Below are positions 11,253 to 27,480 of a stretch of 40,782 nt of DNA, piece after piece. The stretch's first letter is position 1. Every line of letters begins with the position of its first letter. The stretch lies in contig JAADER010000016.1 in NCBI GenBank assembly GCA_013153275.1, positions 1 to 40,782 on the forward strand, written 5' to 3'. The stretch is from Thermoproteota archaeon (GTDB taxonomy: Archaea > Thermoproteota > Thermoprotei > Thermoproteales > Thermocladiaceae). The notes beneath the pieces are model-generated. The model saw nothing but the letters and a program-made list of their open reading frames with translations. It was not told the DNA's origin and ran no database searches. The position numbers and the translations under genes are program-made.

Positions 11253-13118
11253 CTATACCTTGGCCTGTTCTCTCGTTCTTAGTGCTTTTATCCATAGTGC
11301 GAAGAGGTATGTGTTTAGTCCTAGTCCTATGCAGGTTGCTGTTCCTACTATTATTGCTGTTATGATGTTTGGTGTTGCTGGTACTACTATTATGAGGAAC
11401 CATATTAGTGCTAGTGTTACTGTTATCCATAGGAATATTGCTGGTGCTAGTGTTAGTGCTTTTCCTAGTTTTGGTGCTTTTTGTACTTTTATGACCCATA
11501 GGCTGATGGTCATCAGTGCTAGGCTTGCTAGTAGCTGGTTCATTCCTGCGAAGGCTGGCCATATTACTAGGAATGCTTTGCCCCATGCTAGTAGTACGCC
11601 TAGTCCCACCAGTATTAGTGATGCTATTATCCTGTTGCTAAGTACCTTGTATAGTGTCCTTGCTCTGTCTTTGAGTGGTGTCATTAGTTCCTGCCATACG
11701 TATCTTCCTATTCTTGCTCCTGTATCCAGTGATGTGAGTGCGAATGCAGTGATCCATAATGTGGCGAATATTGTCATTGCACGTACGTCGAATCCGAATG
11801 CGTAGTTAGTCATGTATGCATAGCTTAATGGTATTGCTATCCATTTTACATGTTTCATGACTAGAACATAGTACTGTCCCATATATGCTGGATCTGTAAG
11901 TAGCTTGTGCACGAACTCTACGTAGTACGTCTTGAATGTTGATAATGTGGAGAGCTTGCTTACAGGTACTCCCACTGCTCGTGCTACCAGGCTCTTAGCG
12001 GAGCTAAACATCTTTAGCAGGACGGGTCTAGCTAGCAGGGCATATCCTAGAAAGCCTGACATCGACGCTATAACCATCGTTGCTAGGAATCCCTCCGTCA
12101 ACATTCCTCCATATCCTACCATCAGCGCATCTATCTCTCTGTCAAGCTGTTTAGAGGTCGTGCCTGATCCAACTAGGCTATGGAATCCTGATAATGCTCC
12201 ACATGCGATGACTAGTGGCACTGCTGGCCAGAATGGGGATGGCTGTGGTGGCGATCCTATTACTCTGGCTGTGAAGAACTGTGTGAGTGCTGGTGCTACG
12301 GCTTGTGCTCCCTTGAACGATGCTACTATAGCAGCCGCACCACCTATAGCTAATGAAGCCCATAGTAGGTAAGCATTCATGTAGTCTCTCGGCTGTAGTA
12401 GCACCCATACAGGAAGTACTGCCGCAACTATGGTATATACTGTCAATATTATGAGCCACTCGTAGAATCCTAGCTTGAACCCCATCATCTGTATATAGTA
12501 TCCAGCAACTATAGACAACACGAGAAACACTATCGATAGTACGGTCCCACCACCTATGCCTAGCCTAGTCCTATACATCACGTAACCTACTATGACTGCA
12601 AGCGCTATCATTATGAGAGACGCAGCACCCGCTCCAGGAACCATGCTGAACAATGCTGAGATAACGAATGCAAATGCCGCTACAACGAGGACAAGAGCAA
12701 ACCATATGTAGGTGTTGAACGCGTAAAGTGCTTGTCTGCCCATGAGCTTTGATGATACCCAGGCTATGCTTCTTCCCTCATAACGTACTGATGCTGCTAT
12801 CGAGAGATAGTCATGTACTACGCCAATGAAGACGTTTCCGAGCCATACCCAGAGGAGTGCTGGAAGCCATCCCCAGCCTAGCGCTATTGCCGGACCTATT
12901 ATTGGGCCTGCTCCTGCAATGCTTGCGAAGTGATGGCCATATAGTACGAACCTGTTAGTTGGCACGTAATCCACATTGTCCTTGAACAGGTGTGCCGGAG
13001 TTCTTCTCGATGGATCTGCCTTAAATACCCTCCGCTCCAGGTACTTTCCATGCACAAAATAGAACACTATATATATGATTACTGCTCCTATAATCATCAG
13101 GGCTAATGTTGGAATCAT
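11253..13118 (-). CDS. cstA: Carbon starvation protein A (CstA) family transporter
   Basis: A 621-residue integral membrane protein with about 15 hydrophobic segments. Family hallmarks: RRTPAHLFKDNVDYVPTNRF after the first helix, GHHFASIAGAGPIIGPAIALGWGWLPA, HDYLSIAASVRYEGRSIA, and GFHSLVGSGTTSKQLD. In bacteria CstA-type carriers import pyruvate or peptides; in peptide-fermenting archaea peptide uptake is plausible. A TATA-like element near 13155-13164 lies upstream of the ATG with a leader of about 16 nt. Divergent from the Get3-type operon. Confidence 0.95.
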   Translation of the reverse strand: MIPTLALMIIGAVIIYIVFYFVHGKYLERRVFKADPSRRTPAHLFKDNVDYVPTNRFVLYGHHFASIAGAGPIIGPAIALGWGWLPALLWVWLGNVFIGVVHDYLSIAASVRYEGRSIAWVSSKLMGRQALYAFNTYIWFALVLVVAAFAFVISALFSMVPGAGAASLIMIALAVIVGYVMYRTRLGIGGGTVLSIVFLVLSIVAGYYIQMMGFKLGFYEWLIILTVYTIVAAVLPVWVLLQPRDYMNAYLLWASLAIGGAAAIVASFKGAQAVAPALTQFFTARVIGSPPQPSPFWPAVPLVIACGALSGFHSLVGSGTTSKQLDREIDALMVGYGGMLTEGFLATMVIASMSGFLGYALLARPVLLKMFSSAKSLVARAVGVPVSKLSTLSTFKTYYVEFVHKLLTDPAYMGQYYVLVMKHVKWIAIPLSYAYMTNYAFGFDVRAMTIFATLWITAFALTSLDTGARIGRYVWQELMTPLKDRARTLYKVLSNRIIASLILVGLGVLLAWGKAFLVIWPAFAGMNQLLASLALMTISLWVIKVQKAPKLGKALTLAPAIFLWITVTLALIWFLIIVVPATPNIITAIIVGTATCIGLGLNTYLFALWIKALRTREQAKV

Positions 13119-20838: not shown

Positions 20839-22671
20839 TTATACTCTAAGTCCAAGCCTTCTTCTCCTATCATCAATATGGCGTACCATAACCTCAGCAG
20901 CCTTAGCAGGATCACCCTCTACATATAGCCTTCCTCCGGTTATGTCTACAAGCTTCTCCGTCAGCACCGTCTTAACGAGGCTTGAACCATCTATAAACGG
21001 CGAGGGATATACATGCAGAAGGAATCCACATGCTAGTGCATACGCCGCATCTCCAAGAGCCTGCTCCTCGAACCACTGTGGAGCTGATACCACTACTGGA
21101 AGATCTGGTAAATCAACATTGAGCTTCTCAGCAATTTTCTCAGCTAGATAGACTATTCTTGAGACACTCATACACAGTCCAAAATCCCACACTGGAGGAA
21201 GCTTAAGCTCTCTACATGCGTCTTGCAGATCCTTGCTCGCATGCTCGATCGCCTCCTCACTCATGAATCCTAGATCCTGTAGTCCATATGACGTGCATCC
21301 TGCTGTCCACACCATAACTCCTCTTCGTAGTAGCTCCTTTGTCAAGTCTCTTGTCAGTACGTCATGGCCTCTACTTATCAGATTTGAACATCCAACAACT
21401 GCTGCAATACCCCTTATCTTTCCATCAGCTATTAGCTGCATGAGCCTTTCTAACAGGTTCTTCTCAACGTAGTCCTCGCTGAACCCAACGACTGCTCTCT
21501 TAGTTGTACCGAACCTGCTTTCTCTTCTCTTTCTTGCTTTGAATGCCTCTATTGCAAGCTCTACTATCTTCTTAGCAACTTCTCTAGCCTTTTCTGGACT
21601 CCATTGTACAAGTACTGCTTCTTCTATATATGCAACATCGTCAGCAGCTATCAGCCGAGTACCTGTACATCTAGAGATGTCTGTGAGACCCGGAAACGTG
21701 CAGTTGAACTCTGAGACCACGGCATCGATGAGACCGCTAGCTACTAGAGGCTCTGTACCGAAGTTGTTAGCACACTGACCTATGAAACAGCTTTCCTTTA
21801 GAAACTTCCATCTTGACTGTATATCCTGTCCCACACATGTTGCTCCTACAACCTCTATACCGGCGGCTCCAGCCTTCTTTGCAAGCTCCTGAGCCTCGCT
21901 CGATGATGCGTAGTCTATCACTGCCTGCTGTATCACCGTCTGGTGCCCTGTCGTGAGTATGTTAACGTATGAGGGATCTATCTTGCCTATACCTGCCTCA
22001 ACCGTCTCCGGTTCTGGTACTCCTAACGCGATATTGTTCATCCAGGTATTCATTCTTAACGCAACATATCCCATAACTAGCCCGAGCCTGAGAACGTTAA
22101 GCAGCATGTCTAGCACGTTCGCATTAAGGTTCGTCGACGTCTTTACTAGGGCATCGACAATCTCTGATTTTGCGCCTCCGGGAACTATTCCAAGCTTTCT
22201 GAACAGGTCAAGCCTCGGCTTGAACGCTAGTCTAGTGACTATTATGCTCTCCTCGTACCTCGGCCTATATAGGTCTCCTAGCACTAGCTCTGCTAGAGCC
22301 TTGTGATCCGGCTCTATGTTTAGCAGATTACATACTTTCTCAAGCTTCTCTCTACTTTTAACGTTTTCCATGTTCAATAATGCTCTAGCAGTGTTCTCAC
22401 ATACATGCACATAACATGCCACACCAGCCGTAACATGTCTAAGAAGGTTCTTCGCAACGACCTGATGCACATTTAGGCCACAGACTCCGTATGGATACTT
22501 CTCGGTAAGTATACAGGGACCCTCAGAGCACACGTTACAGCACACGCCTTCTCTTCCGAACTTGCACTGTGTAGCTTTTAATCGTCTCGTATGTGGGGTG
22601 TCTATACCGTTCTTTTCGGCTTCTTCCACGAGCTTTCTAACATCTTCATTTGCTGTATCTACAAATGGCAT
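20839..22671 (-). CDS. Ni-containing CO dehydrogenase-like protein (CooS family), divergent active site
   Basis: A 610-residue CooS homologue. D- and B-cluster Cys are kept: C36, C44, C45, C48, C53, C64. All ligands of the Ni-Fe-S C-cluster also appear conserved: H243 (TGHQ), C279 (VVGATCVG), C324 (EFNC), C428 (VVGCSN), C459 (TAGC) and C500 (FGLC). Two acid-base positions differ from biochemically known CODHs by my alignment: the His near GAAAHSDH is Tyr 87, and the Lys of the EKA motif is Gln 537 (EEQAL). So the cluster is probably built, but classic CO oxidation is uncertain. No CooC, acetyl-CoA synthase or CooF gene is adjacent. Divergent from mtd. Confidence 0.85.
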   Translation of the reverse strand: MPFVDTANEDVRKLVEEAEKNGIDTPHTRRLKATQCKFGREGVCCNVCSEGPCILTEKYPYGVCGLNVHQVVAKNLLRHVTAGVACYVHVCENTARALLNMENVKSREKLEKVCNLLNIEPDHKALAELVLGDLYRPRYEESIIVTRLAFKPRLDLFRKLGIVPGGAKSEIVDALVKTSTNLNANVLDMLLNVLRLGLVMGYVALRMNTWMNNIALGVPEPETVEAGIGKIDPSYVNILTTGHQTVIQQAVIDYASSSEAQELAKKAGAAGIEVVGATCVGQDIQSRWKFLKESCFIGQCANNFGTEPLVASGLIDAVVSEFNCTFPGLTDISRCTGTRLIAADDVAYIEEAVLVQWSPEKAREVAKKIVELAIEAFKARKRRESRFGTTKRAVVGFSEDYVEKNLLERLMQLIADGKIRGIAAVVGCSNLISRGHDVLTRDLTKELLRRGVMVWTAGCTSYGLQDLGFMSEEAIEHASKDLQDACRELKLPPVWDFGLCMSVSRIVYLAEKIAEKLNVDLPDLPVVVSAPQWFEEQALGDAAYALACGFLLHVYPSPFIDGSSLVKTVLTEKLVDITGGRLYVEGDPAKAAEVMVRHIDDRRRRLGLRV

Positions 22672-22694
22672 ACATCTACTATCGTTTTGTTCAA

Positions 22695-22702
22695 TATTTA
22701 AG
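22695..22702 (-). promoter_or_regulatory. TATA box for the CODH-like gene
   Basis: TATTTAAG on the plus strand (CTTAAATA on the coding strand), centred about 27 nt before ATG 22671. With the mtd box it defines a 155-bp divergent control region. Confidence 0.6.
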
Positions 22703-22796
22703 TTTTACATACCGTTATTGTTTGGTTCGGAATTCTAACTATGTCATATAAGATTGTAATAGTACGCTATCTATCATTAAGAAAAGATGCCGAAGC

Positions 22797-22804
22797 TTAA
22801 ATAC
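22797..22804 (+). promoter_or_regulatory. TATA box for mtd
   Basis: TTAAATAC, centred 26 nt before GTG 22827. It fixes the GTG as a leaderless start. Confidence 0.6.
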
Positions 22805-22826
22805 CGGGTGAACCTACTATAGGTAA

Positions 22827-23675
22827 GTGAGCAACAAAGTAAGCATCGGAGTCGTAAAGTGCGGATGCATAGGTTCATCAGTTCTCCTAGAATATGCACT
22901 AGACGAGAGAGCGGAGAGAGAGGATATGACGACCATGGTGTATGGTACTGGGTCAAAAATGAGCGAGGACCTCTGTGAGCAAGCTGCTAAGAGAGCGCTC
23001 GAGGGGAAACACGACCTGTATATAGTGGTGAGCCCAAACGCCGCTCTTCCAGGTCCAAGCAGAGCAAGAGAGATACTTGTCGAGAGTGGTAGACCTGTGA
23101 TAGTGATAACAGACGGTGCAGCCAGGAGCATCGCTAAGAAGCTCGACGAGGTGAGTAATGTAGGGTACATAATAGTGTTAGCAGACTCCATGATTGGCGC
23201 CCGAAGAGAGTTTCTCGACCCATCCGAGATGTGTATGTATAATACCTATGTGCTCAGAGTGCTCACAGTATGTGGAGTATATAGATGCATTGTAAGATAT
23301 ATAGACGAGATTGTTAACAAGCTGAAGAAGGGGGAGAGTCCTCAGCTTCCTAGAGTGATATTTGACAAGTACCACGTCATCGAGCACTCAGGTCTACATA
23401 ACCCGTACGCGCTTGCTAAGGCGATCGCGGCATACGAGATCGCTAGACACGTTGCAGATCTCACCGTTGAGGCTTGCTTCAAAGTCAAGGAGTGGGAGAG
23501 ATATACCATGATTGCAGCATCTGCACATGAAATGATGAGAACAGCTGCATTGCTAGCAGAGGAGGCTAGAGAGATAGAGAAGTATAATGACTCTCTTCTC
23601 AGGACTCCGCATGCTAAGGATGGGAGAACACTTGCTAAGACTAGGCTCATGGAGAAGCCCGCAGAGGTGATGTAG
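22827..23675 (+). CDS. mtd: F420-dependent methylenetetrahydromethanopterin dehydrogenase
   Basis: A 282-residue enzyme that oxidises methylene-H4MPT to methenyl-H4MPT with coenzyme F420. Match to archaeal Mtd along the whole length: IGVVKCGCIGSS (7-18), LDERAEREDM, VVSPNAALPGPSRAREIL (67-84), ADSMIGARREFLDPSEM (119-135), NPYALAKAIAAYEIA and, near the end, LRTPHAKDGRTLAKTRLMEKP. Length is normal (methanogen enzymes have ~276 residues). It implies the cell has tetrahydromethanopterin (or a relative) and F420. One base separates it from the FwdD/FwdB fusion gene, so both are in one operon. Confidence 0.95.
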   Translation: MSNKVSIGVVKCGCIGSSVLLEYALDERAEREDMTTMVYGTGSKMSEDLCEQAAKRALEGKHDLYIVVSPNAALPGPSRAREILVESGRPVIVITDGAARSIAKKLDEVSNVGYIIVLADSMIGARREFLDPSEMCMYNTYVLRVLTVCGVYRCIVRYIDEIVNKLKKGESPQLPRVIFDKYHVIEHSGLHNPYALAKAIAAYEIARHVADLTVEACFKVKEWERYTMIAASAHEMMRTAALLAEEAREIEKYNDSLLRTPHAKDGRTLAKTRLMEKPAEVM

Positions 23676-23676
23676 A

Positions 23677-25593
23677 TTGGGTAAGTGTGTGAGAGCTGTA
23701 CTTAGCACAGGTAGAACGATAGAGCAGGGCTATTTTCTAGAAGGGTTTGGGAGGTTCTCTAGAGAGTATCTTGAAACGATATCCACATTATATCTGAGCA
23801 GGGAAGATGCTGAGAAGCTAGGATTGAAAGATAGGGCGCCTGTCAGGGTGAGAGGGCCTAATGGAAGAGAGGTCACAATGATCGTTAAGATAGATGACAC
23901 GGTGCAGCCAGGAACAGCATTTGCAGCATATGGTGCTATAGTTAACACTATTATACCTGCAGAGACAGAGGCAGCAGCGACTCCCAACTATAAGCAAGTA
24001 CCGGTCGAGATCTGCATCAGCGAGAGCACTGTTGAGGAGAGCGACGTGGAGACTTATGCAAAGTTTGTAAAGGATATTCCTGGGATAGGTGATAGACCTG
24101 TAAGGAGAGGAGAGTATAGGAGAGTGCGGGCCGTATGTCCCTTCTGTGGGCTTCTCTGTGATAATGTCATAGTTAAGATGGTTGGCGAAGAGATAGTGGA
24201 TGTAGAGGAGGCATGTGTAGTAGGTAGGGCAAAGTTCGTTTCTTACCATAGAGAGAGGGTTCTGAGGCCTCTAAGGAGGCGTGAGAATGGAGAGTTCATA
24301 GAGATCCCTCTAGAGAGGGCAATAGATGAGGCTGCTGAGATTCTCGCTAGCTCTAGATATCCTCTCATGTATGGGTGGAGCTGTACAACATGTGAGGCAA
24401 TAAGGATAGGACTCAGGCTTGCAGAGCTCATAGGAGCAGTAGTGGATAACACATCGACAGTATGTCATGGACCAACGATGATGGCTGTAGCCGAGACAGG
24501 TCACTCTGACTTCACGCTAGGGTTCACGCCACATTACGCTGATCTAGTAATATTCTGGGGCTGGAATCCCTCTCACGCGCATCCTAACTTCACATTCAGG
24601 TTTATCAATAAGGAAGGAAAGCTCGTCAATGGGAGGAAGGGAAGAAAAGTAGTGATAATTGATGTCAGAGATGTTGCTCCGCTGAGACCTGTAGAGATAG
24701 ACCTTAAGAAATGTACTGGATGTGACTTATGTGCTGATGCTTGTCCAGAAATAATAAGAAAGAGAGCGGGAAAGATTGGGCTGAAAACATATGACATAGA
24801 TATTGATAAATGTAGAGAATGTGGACTCTGTATACGAATCTGCCCGACAAATGCCTTCAGATATGAGAAGGACGTAGACCTCTACATGAGAGTTCTTCCT
24901 GGAAGAGACTACGAGCTTCTTACAGCTATCAGAATGTGTCTAAGAGACCTCGAAATAGAGAAAAGCAAGATCGGGGGAGTTGACAAGGAAGTATTCGTAA
25001 GCTTCTGTGAAGACCTTCGAAAAGCTAGCTACGTAGTACTCTTCTTCGGTGTCGGACTAACACATAGTAGAGGAAAATTCAAGAACATTGAAGAGGCGAT
25101 AAAAACTATACAGGAACTTAACGAGCATACTAAGGCTATAATAATCGCAATGAGGGGACACTTCAACGTGACAGGCAGTAACATGGTCTTCCTATGGACA
25201 TATGGGGCACCGTTCGGTATAGACCTATCAAAGAGGTATCCACGTTACATTCCTGGAGTCACATCAGCCGTAGACATATTGAGAAGAGGAGAGACAGATG
25301 CAGTACTTGTAGCAGGTGCAGATCCAGCAGCGTCATTTCCCAGAGATGCTGTCGAGCACTTAGAGAAGGTTCCTCTCATACTTCTCACACCTAAACTATG
25401 CGAGACCCTTAAGTATGCTGACATAGTAGTTCCAGTTGCTCTCACAGGAATAGAATGTGAGGGCACCGCATATAGACTAGATGCGATACCGATAAGAGTC
25501 AAGAAGCTTGTAGATCCTCCTCCTGGCGTCCTATCAGACTTTGATATACTACATATGATATATGACAAGGTCTTGAGACTGTTACGGAAGTGA
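23677..25593 (+). CDS. FwdD-FwdB fusion with inserted 2[4Fe-4S] ferredoxin (formylmethanofuran dehydrogenase)
   Basis: A 638-residue molybdopterin protein, start TTG 23677. Residues 1-~112 are FwdD (molybdopterin dinucleotide-binding barrel: TGRTIEQGYF, QPGTAFAAYGAIVNTII, TPNYKQVPVEI). Residues ~148-638 are FwdB: [4Fe-4S] Cys 154, 157, 161 and 180, YGWSCTTCEA, and STVCHGPT, where Cys 263 is the likely metal ligand (selenocysteine at this place in some methanogens). A bacterial-type ferredoxin with C346, 349, 352, 356 and C379, 382, 385, 389 interrupts FwdB between DVRDVAPLRP and MRVLPGRDYE. FwdA, FwdC and ferredoxin subunits are not nearby. The reaction is CO2/formylmethanofuran interconversion, or formate chemistry if used without FwdA. 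Confidence 0.9.
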   Translation: MGKCVRAVLSTGRTIEQGYFLEGFGRFSREYLETISTLYLSREDAEKLGLKDRAPVRVRGPNGREVTMIVKIDDTVQPGTAFAAYGAIVNTIIPAETEAAATPNYKQVPVEICISESTVEESDVETYAKFVKDIPGIGDRPVRRGEYRRVRAVCPFCGLLCDNVIVKMVGEEIVDVEEACVVGRAKFVSYHRERVLRPLRRRENGEFIEIPLERAIDEAAEILASSRYPLMYGWSCTTCEAIRIGLRLAELIGAVVDNTSTVCHGPTMMAVAETGHSDFTLGFTPHYADLVIFWGWNPSHAHPNFTFRFINKEGKLVNGRKGRKVVIIDVRDVAPLRPVEIDLKKCTGCDLCADACPEIIRKRAGKIGLKTYDIDIDKCRECGLCIRICPTNAFRYEKDVDLYMRVLPGRDYELLTAIRMCLRDLEIEKSKIGGVDKEVFVSFCEDLRKASYVVLFFGVGLTHSRGKFKNIEEAIKTIQELNEHTKAIIIAMRGHFNVTGSNMVFLWTYGAPFGIDLSKRYPRYIPGVTSAVDILRRGETDAVLVAGADPAASFPRDAVEHLEKVPLILLTPKLCETLKYADIVVPVALTGIECEGTAYRLDAIPIRVKKLVDPPPGVLSDFDILHMIYDKVLRLLRK

Positions 25594-25597
25594 AACG

Positions 25598-26080
25598 TTA
25601 GAGAAGCTCGCTTGTAAGCACTATGCTTGCATTACCATTATTACACTCAACACTCTCTATCACGTAGACCTTGTCTGAGAGGACCTCTACTAGCGAGCAT
25701 GCGAGTAACGTAAGCACGCAGAGCTTCTTGGACTTCAATATCTCTCTAACACGATCCATAATCTTGAGTTCCGGAGCAGAGAATATGCACTCGCAGTCTC
25801 TTATCTCTACCCTTATCTTACTATGATTAAATTCCTTAATATCTCTGACATCAAATCTTAAGTATTTTCGAAGAACATTGTAAGCTACTCTGAAAGCTTC
25901 TACAGGATCATCTATCTTTCTCTTTACATCTATGTTCGCAAGCTTAAGCATCTCTACAGCAGTCTTATGTGAAGCAATATTAAATATCATTGTGAGAGCA
26001 TCGTCCCCAGCTAGGTTCGCTATGCTCTCAACAATATTCTTCAGAAGAAGTCTACTAGCGGTATATTGCTGCGTGCTCAT
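25598..26080 (-). CDS. Cys-rich partner protein, copy 2 (V4R-like?)
   Basis: A 160-residue protein paralogous to the one at 26586-27053. Shared features: an N-terminal helical region (NIVESIANLAGDDALTMI versus NILDALVDLVGEEAVTTV), a strand ending VEIRDC, a basic KKLCVLTLL motif, and the ending VESVECNNGNASI versus VGSVRCEGGNAVI. The spacing of Cys recalls V4R/heme-associated sensor folds, but I do not recognise the family. It lies 2 nt downstream of a roadblock gene, so the pair is coexpressed. Confidence 0.7.
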   Translation of the reverse strand: MSTQQYTASRLLLKNIVESIANLAGDDALTMIFNIASHKTAVEMLKLANIDVKRKIDDPVEAFRVAYNVLRKYLRFDVRDIKEFNHSKIRVEIRDCECIFSAPELKIMDRVREILKSKKLCVLTLLACSLVEVLSDKVYVIESVECNNGNASIVLTSELL

Positions 26081-26082
26081 AC

Positions 26083-26502
26083 TTAATGTACCTTGAATAG
26101 GTCTTTAAGCCTCTCTATCAGCTCATCTAACATAAGGAGCACTAGACCCACATTCACATCTGCTGCATCATCCGGTGATACAAGGACGCCTATATATAGA
26201 TCTCTTCCAGATCCTACTCGTACAGACTTCAGGATGAGCTTGCTCTTTCTACCCTCCATAAGCACCGTCTGAAGCTCATCATCTCTAAGTTGCATGTACG
26301 CCTTCCGGCTAGACCCCATTATCAGCGTTATTAAGGCAGCAACACTACGCTTCTGCGGCGCTGTTAGAGAGCTTCCGTAAGAATATACTACAAGGCCATC
26401 TGGTCTAGCTATCACAACCTCGTCTACTACCCTACCGCATGAATCTACGAATCTTTTCACGAGTTTGTCCAATGTGGTTTGAATGGACTCTGTCTGCGAC
26501 AT
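26083..26502 (-). CDS. Roadblock/LC7-domain protein, copy 2
   Basis: A 139-residue roadblock/LC7 (MglB-like) protein: an initial helix, EVVIARPDGLVVYSY (first strands, with the typical PDG turn), a helix with MGSSRKAY, then VLMEGRKSKLILKSVRVG and GVLVSPDDAADVNVGLVLLMLDEL. Such proteins dimerise and regulate small GTPases; no GTPase gene is next to it. ATG 26502 is chosen because a TATA box at 26525-26532 predicts transcription there; an ATG 21 nt earlier (26523) would lie upstream of the transcript. Confidence 0.85.
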   Translation of the reverse strand: MSQTESIQTTLDKLVKRFVDSCGRVVDEVVIARPDGLVVYSYGSSLTAPQKRSVAALITLIMGSSRKAYMQLRDDELQTVLMEGRKSKLILKSVRVGSGRDLYIGVLVSPDDAADVNVGLVLLMLDELIERLKDLFKVH

Positions 26503-26524
26503 TGATCTACTAGTTTCTAACAAG

Positions 26525-26532
26525 TTTTTAAG
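26525..26532 (-). promoter_or_regulatory. TATA box for the second roadblock pair
   Basis: TTTTTAAG on the plus strand (CTTAAAAA on the coding strand), centred 26 nt before ATG 26502. It shows that the second pair has its own promoter. Confidence 0.55.
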
Positions 26533-26585
26533 TGGTAAGGGCTGTCCGTGTATCCATTTCGGAAAACTATCTACCTAGTTAGGAA

Positions 26586-27053
26586 CTACTTTCTCAGGTA
26601 CAGCTCAGGGCTCAGAATCTCTATTACAGCATTACCGCCCTCACATCTCACAGATCCAACATCATATCTCTTGTTCATACACTTCTCGATTAGTGATAAG
26701 CAGAGCAGAGCGAGAATGCATAGCTTACTGCGTCTCAATATGTCTGAGACTCTAGATATTGCATGTCCTTTACTGCCCGAGAACTTGCAGTCTCGAACCT
26801 CTATAATTATCTTCTCACCGTTCATCTCCGGTCTAATTGTCACATCTGTGTCAAGCTCTTTCTTTATGATCTCCCTGATCTTCTCTGCAAGCTCTGTAAG
26901 GTTAGTAGTCTTTATGTTGTACATTGTCACAAGCTCATCTGCTGTCCTCTGTATCGCGACCCTTATCACTGTCGTTACTGCCTCCTCTCCTACAAGATCC
27001 ACGAGTGCGTCAAGTATGTTGGTAAGTATAAGAGTACTCATTCGGGTCGCCAT
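26586..27053 (-). CDS. Cys-rich partner protein, copy 1 (V4R-like?)
   Basis: A 155-residue protein, paralogue of the product of 25598-26080. Order of motifs: N-terminal helices, a strand IIIEVRDCKF, RRSKLCILALLCLSLIEKCM (Cys-rich helix), then VGSVRCEGGNAVIEI. The conserved Cys triad (DC, KLC, RC/EC) could bind a metal, Fe-S cluster or tetrapyrrole. Start at 27053 or at the Met four codons later. It follows the roadblock gene of copy 1 by 19 nt. Family not recognised. Confidence 0.7.
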   Translation of the reverse strand: MATRMSTLILTNILDALVDLVGEEAVTTVIRVAIQRTADELVTMYNIKTTNLTELAEKIREIIKKELDTDVTIRPEMNGEKIIIEVRDCKFSGSKGHAISRVSDILRRSKLCILALLCLSLIEKCMNKRYDVGSVRCEGGNAVIEILSPELYLRK

Positions 27054-27072
27054 ATCTAGATCTCAGATAGGA

Positions 27073-27480
27073 CTAGTATCCTTTAAGTATCTCTCTCAAC
27101 CTATTACCAAGACTGTCGAGCGCTAACATGATTAGTCCGATGTTAGGTTCAGGATTGTCTGATGGAGTTATCACGCTGACGTAGACTCCTGTGCCTCCTA
27201 GGTCTATATATTTCACCAGTACCTTTCCTCGTTTTCCATCTATGATTATCGAATCTATGTCTCCTCCTCTTAGCTGGTTGTATATTCTCTTGCTAGATCC
27301 CATGAGCAGCGATACTAGTGCGGCGATCCCTCTAGCATCATATTTAGATCCTGGTGGTGTGTATGCATACACTATCAATCCATCAGGCCGTGTTATAACG
27401 ACATTTTCAACACTGTCTCCACACATGTCGAGGAACCTGCGTACTGCCTTATCTATAGCAGAACTTAAAGATTCAGACAT
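27073..27480 (-). CDS. Roadblock/LC7-domain protein, copy 1
   Basis: A 135-residue roadblock/LC7 protein with the same plan as the copy at 26083: an initial helix SAIDKAVRRFLDMCGDSV, strands NVVITRPDGLIVYAY, MGSSKRIYNQL, IIDGKRGKVLVKYIDLG and VITPSDNPEPNIGLIMLALDSL. Two paralogues with a partner gene each suggests a tandem duplication. Expected role: a dimeric platform controlling a Ras-like or Rag-like GTPase. Leaderless, with a TATA box 26 nt upstream. Confidence 0.87.
   Translation of the reverse strand: MSESLSSAIDKAVRRFLDMCGDSVENVVITRPDGLIVYAYTPPGSKYDARGIAALVSLLMGSSKRIYNQLRGGDIDSIIIDGKRGKVLVKYIDLGGTGVYVSVITPSDNPEPNIGLIMLALDSLGNRLREILKGY

Follow-up and report, generated by a model that had tools for sequence, protein, structure and literature searches.

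A clade C-type CO dehydrogenase gene divergent from mtd and a ferredoxin-bearing FwdD-FwdB fusion in a Thermocladiaceae genus with genes of an archaeal Wood-Ljungdahl pathway

Introduction

Among the closest described systems, the MCR-free Wood-Ljungdahl pathway of Korarchaeia and Bathyarchaeia, which is linked to tetrahydromethanopterin (H4MPT), comprises Fwd, Ftr, Mch, Mtd, Mer and CdhABCDE, and for similar gene sets in Korarchaeia a homoacetogenic use as an electron sink has been proposed (PMC10667645; this and the other sources given by PMC number were available in part, and what is drawn from them is limited to those parts). The present study concerns three genes, for a CooS-type Ni-CO dehydrogenase (CODH), for Mtd, the F420-dependent methylene-H4MPT dehydrogenase, and for a fusion of the formylmethanofuran dehydrogenase subunits FwdD and FwdB, which lie together in a stretch of 40,782 nucleotides (hereafter the window) from a metagenome-assembled genome (MAG) of a Thermoproteota archaeon (GCA_013153275.1, contig JAADER010000016.1, positions 1-40,782; GTDB Thermoproteales, Thermocladiaceae). 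Thermoproteales are described as autotrophs of the dicarboxylate/4-hydroxybutyrate type (PMC11094006, PMC9802188, PMC7078158). No description of a Wood-Ljungdahl pathway for this lineage (Thermocladiaceae, Thermoproteales, Thermoproteia) was found in the open-licence literature searched, of which parts were available; an earlier note on this DNA had named a prior account of the full pathway as what would speak against its reading.

Formylmethanofuran dehydrogenase is known structurally as the tungsten FwdABCDFG complex (PDB 5t5i/5t61), and FwdB-FwdD fusions have been reported in 16 Methanomicrobiales and 14 TACK assemblies (PMC11237513). Clade C of the Ni-CODHs is marked by replacement of the acid-base His by Tyr and of Lys by Gln, with a complete set of C-cluster ligands (Inoue et al. 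2019, PMC6344411). The usual operon neighbours of clade C enzymes are CooF (72%) and an NAD(P)/FAD oxidoreductase (71%), and the reported lack of one-carbon genes in the operons of clades C and D is part of the argument that these enzymes have low or no CO activity (PMC13056359). CooS of T. kivui has a CO:ferredoxin activity 15 times below that of AcsA and is essential for growth on CO (PMC8683389); it was assigned to clade C with the warning that it is a poor representative (PMC13056359).

The genome containing the window (G000; 1.39 Mb in 71 contigs, completeness estimate 88.6%, contamination 0.27%) was compared with the four other genomes available for its genus (G007, G008, G009 and G010), with samples of 25 genomes for the family and 45 for the order, and, in the searches for Mtd and CooS-type CODH, with 398 Thermoproteota genomes for the phylum. 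Two genus members are deposited under 'Thermoproteales archaeon' and not as Desulfurococcales, with which the earlier note had proposed a comparison.

The Wood-Ljungdahl gene set

The three genes probably form the CO2-to-methylene entry of an archaeal Wood-Ljungdahl pathway without MCR, the other genes of which lie on other contigs, together with an accessory CODH. FwdA, FwdC, Ftr, Mch, Mer and CdhABCDE are all encoded elsewhere in the same genome. Model cut-offs (in brackets) are exceeded by FwdA with 700 bits (393), FwdC with 213 (131), Ftr with 351 (293), Mer with 365 (349), CdhA with 1112 (781), CdhC with 581 (356), CdhD with 359 (253) and CdhE with 516 (306). CdhB scores 96.0 bits, below its NCBIfam cut-off of 101.2, and Mch is below the cut-off of NCBIfam (169.8 versus 228.8 bits) and above that of Pfam (190.6 versus 25). 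A single genome accordingly holds the whole methyl branch (Fwd, Ftr, Mch, Mtd and Mer), the carbonyl branch CdhA-E with its acetyl-CoA synthase CdhC, and FwdA and FwdC as partners of the fusion protein. In the main CdhA, ligand and acid-base residues are retained at the aligned positions, which makes it competent for the CODH step of the pathway. Among H4MPT-biosynthesis-like genes, a member of the beta-RFAP synthase family passes its cut-off (116 bits, cut-off 113.5) and an MptN-like gene stays below it (224 bits, cut-off 350).

Throughout the genus CODH, CdhC, Ftr, FwdA and Mtd are each present in 5/5 genomes, as are Mer-like proteins, three of them over the cut-off, and the corresponding figures for the 45 genomes of the order are MCH 4, CdhC 6, FTR 7, FwdA over the cut-off 7 and Mer 6 (4 over the cut-off). 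The MCR alpha subunit was matched in none of the 25 family genomes, the own genome being 88.6% complete, and the control was matched in two methanogens. The partial Wood-Ljungdahl route considered in the earlier note is too narrow for such a gene set; its remark that acetyl-CoA synthase, mch, ftr and mcr genes are not adjacent is true of the locus, but all of them except mcr occur elsewhere in the genome.

Related genes were also observed outside this set. The genome encodes a second CdhA-like protein (L050:8662-12087, on G000:C2; 606 bits, below the cut-off of 781), in which the His of GHN is lost; its gene directly follows one similar to the F420-hydrogenase beta subunit (FrhB) and lies near a gene for an AcsV/RACo-like activator. 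G001, of the same order and another family, carries an FwdDB fusion, FwdA, Mch, Ftr, Mer, CdhC and CofD (L055, L056) with no Mtd match, and a CdhA-like protein of its cdh region has lost several ligands. G019, of the same family, has Ftr, and FwdA and Mch matches that are each split over two frames, at about 46.8-53.0 kb of its contig C12 (L021, L022, L035, L047), and no match to Mtd, Mer or CdhC; decaying genes, assembly errors or contamination are the options.

The FwdD-FwdB fusion and its ferredoxin insert

The FwdB part of the fusion was recognized by TIGR03129 (440.6 bits, cut-off 327.8), and the profile of the FwdDB family matched PDB 5t5i_B with 532 bits. At residues 6-120 NF042908 gave an FwdD match of 50.4 bits (E 2e-13), below its cut-off of 175; the same part matched PF01568 above the cut-off and 5t5i_D over profile positions 4-130. 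Between the two halves of FwdB, the five proteins of the genus have 69-75 residues, with the ferredoxin insert, as against 8-18 in the other 34 aligned, so that 5/39 aligned FwdB proteins, all of this genus, bear the insert. Loci of FwdB were also compared as the best 80 of 281 relatives in the genome collection; since three of them yielded no FwdB open reading frame (ORF) above 150 bits, at most 77 were examined, and the motif pair of the insert was found in four, again all of this genus, and the idea of a widespread insert was therefore rejected. The other fusions examined (L055/L121, L122, L152) do not have it. The novelty of FwdDB is thus the extra 2[4Fe-4S] domain, the fusion of B and D being already in print.

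In 39/39 aligned FwdB proteins the four Cys of the cluster and the Cys-His pair are invariant. The protein therefore retains the [4Fe-4S] Cys4 set and the active-site Cys-His of a redox-active FwdB, unlike a redox-dead FhcB. A structure model from the 39-row alignment reached a predicted local distance difference test score (pLDDT) of 91.6, and a poor one from six sequences (62.7) was set aside. The modelled FwdB core superimposes on FwdB structures with Z 40 and 1.2-1.3 Å over about 425 residues, the N-terminal FwdD part being barely covered. Because the core agrees this closely with crystal structures and the catalytic residues are invariant, the insert leaves the predicted core undisturbed.

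In a tree of 75 distinct FwdB sequences (>250 bits, a CPFCG or CPICG motif, core of >=380 residues, that is, at least that length) the genus is placed next to two further fusions from Thermoproteota, of which one belongs to the same order, at weak support (76/97); the row L122_265 was grouped with the fusions by its locus name, though it is a separate copy of 464 residues. In G009 and G010 fwdA lies near mtd-fwdDB. No genes for FwdF or FwdG were noticed in the genome stretches read, no genome-wide search for them having been made.

Mtd

Mtd was matched by PRK00994 (362.5 bits, cut-off 297) and PF01993 (359 bits). Within the order it occurs in 5/45 genomes, which are the five members of the genus, and within the phylum in 66/398, which rules out that Mtd is rare in the phylum. 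The impression that the set is uncommon therefore stands for the order and not for the phylum, and Mtd, confined to one genus within the order, is as odd for the lineage as had been supposed. The five genus sequences group together (100/100) on a long stem, at a poorly resolved fork with other Thermoproteota. That Mtd and FwdB of the genus form long-stemmed clades of their own, each in its tree, fits an old presence in the lineage better than a recent import from a methanogen.

Among the best 80 FwdB loci an Mtd gene is present in seven, namely the four genus loci, where mtd directly precedes fwdDB, and L135, L136 and L156; in L136 (Njordarchaeum) mtd starts about 280 bp after fwdB. These three weaken the idea that an Mtd gene beside FwdB is peculiar to the genus.

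The CODH

The window CODH is an anaerobic CODH catalytic subunit by TIGR01702 (641.8 bits, cut-off 478). Residue positions were assigned in an alignment of 36 CODHs by what we take to be the numbering of C. hydrogenoformans CODH-II. The acid-base His is Tyr and the Lys is Gln, and the six C-cluster ligands tested (one His, five Cys) are all kept, which is the residue pattern of clade C Ni-CODHs. For the tree, 36/60 matching ORFs were retained after removal of duplicates and of lengths outside 550-700 residues, a filter that also left out the partial copies of G007 and G010. The window CODH groups with four Tyr/Gln CODHs of another family (100/99), to which it is 41-42% identical, on a long stem and in a tree from which named clade C references are absent. 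Downstream of these four lie a CooF-like ferredoxin gene and then an FAD oxidoreductase-like gene, neither of which adjoins the window CODH among the ORFs of the window; the trait is common in the clade and does not define it. Of the 398 phylum genomes, six (G000, G007, G009, G010, G316 and G375) gave matches to Mtd as well as to a CooS-type CODH (E up to 1e-30), and in G316 the two are about 75 kb apart.

Further CODH-like proteins were noted. All five genus genomes have a second one (L051:4819-9626 on G000:C47, and L009, L010, L012, L013), in which the C-cluster His and the first Cys ligand are lost and Glu takes the place of Lys. In G000 its gene lies in a row with genes for a CooF-like ferredoxin and for subunits of the [NiFe] hydrogenase type; the hydrogenase large subunit keeps both CxxC motifs, and a membrane subunit is not obvious nearby. 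In fifteen Thermoproteota CODHs, mostly of family f17 (L081, L082, L087, L089, L092-L102), the acid-base His is replaced by Tyr and the first C-cluster Cys by Glu, the pattern of the published structural group D-1 (PMC6344411).

Layout of the locus

The features of the locus are listed in table 1. The three ORFs of the earlier note were confirmed in position and strand and all pass curated NCBIfam cut-offs; its enzyme names and F420/H4MPT chemistry (TIGR01702, PRK00994, TIGR03129), its identification of an Fwd fusion (the FwdD match and FwdB in one protein) and its divergent arrangement over 155 bp were likewise right. Two sister genomes have gaps of 154 and 153 bp between the CODH and mtd starts.

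Table 1. Features of the CODH-mtd-fwdDB locus (window positions)
Feature	Position	Strand	Basis
CooS-type Ni-CO dehydrogenase with clade C residue signature	20839..22671	-	TIGR01702, residue table, tree
Putative divergent promoter region, 155 bp	22672..22826	.	Similar length and conserved blocks in two sister genomes
TATA-like TTAAATA (TATTTAA on +), 23 nt upstream of CODH start	22695..22701	-	Invariant in 3 aligned genomes
Conserved TATCATTAAGAA, just upstream of mtd TATA-like box	22772..22783	+	Invariant in 3 genomes
BRE (transcription factor B recognition element)/TATA-like GCTTAAATA, 23 nt upstream of mtd	22795..22803	+	Alignment of three intergenic regions
mtd, F420-dependent methylene-H4MPT dehydrogenase	22827..23675	+	PRK00994, PF01993
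FwdD-FwdB fusion (tungsten/molybdenum formylmethanofuran dehydrogenase) with ferredoxin insert	23677..25593	+	TIGR03129, profile, model
N-terminal FwdD-like domain, residues 6-120	23692..24036	+	NF042908, PF01568, 5t5i_D
2[4Fe-4S] ferredoxin-like insert inside FwdB, residues about 339-401	24691..24879	+	Pfam Fer4 models

Judged from sequence conservation, the TATA-like and TATCATTAAGAA blocks would be promoter elements. The exact 12-mer TATCATTAAGAA was found only before mtd among the 25 genus sequences scanned. A regulon cannot be argued, as no exact shared copy of the conserved promoter motif precedes other pathway genes. No regulator gene is adjacent to CODH, mtd or fwdDB among the ORFs and domain matches of the window.

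Two other parts of the window deserve mention. A CstA carbon-starvation transporter of 621 residues (PF02554, 436 bits) is encoded at 11253-13118, about 7.7 kb from the C1 genes. At 25598-27480 there are two tandem pairs, each of a Roadblock/LC7-like gene and a gene for a protein of about 157 residues without a Pfam family, the copies being 40% and 37% identical.

Proposed role and alternatives

In the Wood-Ljungdahl pathway proposed here, FwdA, FwdC and FwdDB would make up a small formylmethanofuran dehydrogenase, with FwdD-FwdB as its redox half; through the 2[4Fe-4S] domain built into that half, electrons would enter straight from reduced ferredoxin and not by way of separate FwdF/FwdG polyferredoxins. 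The ferredoxin-driven reduction of CO2 on methanofuran by this enzyme would yield formylmethanofuran, to be converted by Ftr, Mch, Mtd and Mer into methyl-H4MPT, with F420H2 used by Mtd and Mer, and CdhABCDE would join the methyl group with CO to give acetyl-CoA. The divergent CODH would be a second, clade C-type Ni-CODH and not the main CODH of the pathway; slow oxidation of CO, supplying reduced ferredoxin, is tentatively its most likely activity, with somewhat less than even confidence. Gene content, family membership, residue states, the fusion and the insert are observed; electron flow, co-regulation and net direction (CO2 fixation or an electron sink versus acetyl-CoA oxidation) are what we infer.

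Several findings weigh against this proposal. MCH was matched in two of the five genus genomes (G000 and G007), with low scores, and Mch was not found in the other three in the search of the 45 order genomes. CofD is present in G007, G009 and G010 and was not found in G000 or G008, so that, where the earlier note had let its reading depend on H4MPT or F420 biosynthesis genes, the former have representatives, but CofD is found in 3/5 genus genomes and not in the own one; incompleteness or divergence may lie behind the absent CofD and Mch matches. Furthermore, the CODH is not essential to the pathway, since the divergent CODH-mtd pair is found in three genomes only (G000, G007, G008), the partial CODH of G010 (79% identical) is on another contig than mtd, and no window-type CODH was found in G009, which has mtd-fwdDB and carries a canonical CODH on C44. 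Clade C CODHs have also been considered probably auxiliary or regulatory (PMC13056359).

Of the alternatives, the reverse direction is less probable, though it deserves attention: a heterotroph would oxidize acetyl-CoA to CO2 via CdhABCDE, Mer, Mtd, Mch, Ftr and Fwd and pass the electrons to sulfur compounds or H+, and the CODH would scavenge CO leaking from Cdh. All steps of the pathway are reversible and Archaeoglobus sets a precedent for this direction, with which peptide-transporter-like and tricarboxylic acid cycle-type genes, seen by eye in the stretches read, are consistent; however, no terminal reductase was seen by eye in the approximately 15% of the genome read, where no dedicated search was made, and the extra own-genome stretches read by eye held nothing decisive on terminal reductases or hydrogenases that would set the direction.

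About as unlikely as reversal is that the clade C CODH serves as a redox or CO sensor or regulator, divergent from mtd-fwdDB because it helps to control them. The replaced acid-base His and Lys, the promoter region shared with mtd-fwdDB and the redox or regulatory roles proposed for clades C and D (PMC13056359) argue for a sensor, while the retention of all six C-cluster ligands tested, the CO:ferredoxin activity of T. kivui CooS (PMC8683389), the absence of an adjacent regulator gene and the case of G009, with its mtd-fwdDB and no window-type CODH found, argue against it.

A more daring version of the CO2-reducing pathway, which we regard as rather improbable, is a CO-powered C1-reduction unit, in which electrons of the clade C CODH would pass directly, or via one ferredoxin, to the ferredoxin domain of FwdDB, and CO2 would be reduced to formylmethanofuran without polyferredoxins. 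If this were true, clade C CODHs would have a function in metabolism, in a genus of Thermoproteales whose CO2 fixation runs through the Wood-Ljungdahl pathway; that trait would have been retained or regained within an order whose known route is the dicarboxylate/4-hydroxybutyrate cycle.

A stand-alone module for formaldehyde or formate oxidation, or for C1 supply, without acetyl-CoA synthesis is very improbable; the genes for acetyl-CoA synthase, mch and ftr are not adjacent, and a relative, G019, shows Fwd/Ftr/Mch-type genes and no match to Mtd, Mer or CdhC, but this reading is contradicted by gene content, since CdhC occurs in 5/5 genus genomes and the own genome also encodes CdhA, B, D and E, and oxidation alone, as the earlier note had envisaged, is also unlikely given the remaining pathway genes and the two methanopterin-biosynthesis-like genes. 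Least probable of all is a binning artefact, by which methanogen-like contigs would have been misplaced into a Thermoproteales bin: the assembly is fragmented into 71 contigs and other genera of the order have no Mtd match, but the genes are present in five separate MAGs of the genus, the module is flanked on both sides by housekeeping genes (prolyl- and threonyl-tRNA synthetases ProRS and ThrRS, an A/V-type ATP synthase subunit), synteny with G008 extends over the downstream roadblock genes, the GC content of the module (0.44-0.46) is inside the 0.35-0.47 range of the window, the contamination estimate is 0.27%, and Mtd and FwdB of the genus stand in their own long-stemmed clades.

Comparison with known systems

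With the tungsten FwdABCDFG complex (PDB 5t5i/5t61) FwdDB shares the FwdB fold and the catalytic Cys and His; it differs in that D and B form one chain, interrupted after FwdB position about 192-197 by a 2[4Fe-4S] domain. In the published FwdB-FwdD fusions B and D are joined as here, and the part of the report available mentions no ferredoxin insert (PMC11237513). A formylmethanofuran dehydrogenase that carries a ferredoxin domain within itself would offer a simpler enzyme design for study.

The window CODH resembles clade C Ni-CODHs in the replacement of the acid-base His by Tyr and of the Lys by Gln, alongside a full set of C-cluster ligands. Clade C operons are reportedly without one-carbon genes, as far as the available part of the source goes (PMC13056359), whereas the window CODH adjoins mtd and fwdDB. 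Published operon contexts have left the function of clade C CODHs unsettled, and here one of them stands opposite genes for defined steps.

The MCR-free H4MPT-dependent Wood-Ljungdahl pathway of Korarchaeia and Bathyarchaeia (PMC10667645) has in common with the present gene set Fwd, Ftr, Mch, Mtd, Mer and CdhABCDE. A near-complete set in a Thermoproteales genus bears on how so old a pathway came to be kept, lost or regained, and it departs from the described one in its occurrence in a different order, in a genus placed with genera lacking Mtd, in the FwdDB fusion with its ferredoxin insert and in the clade C-type CODH beside mtd.

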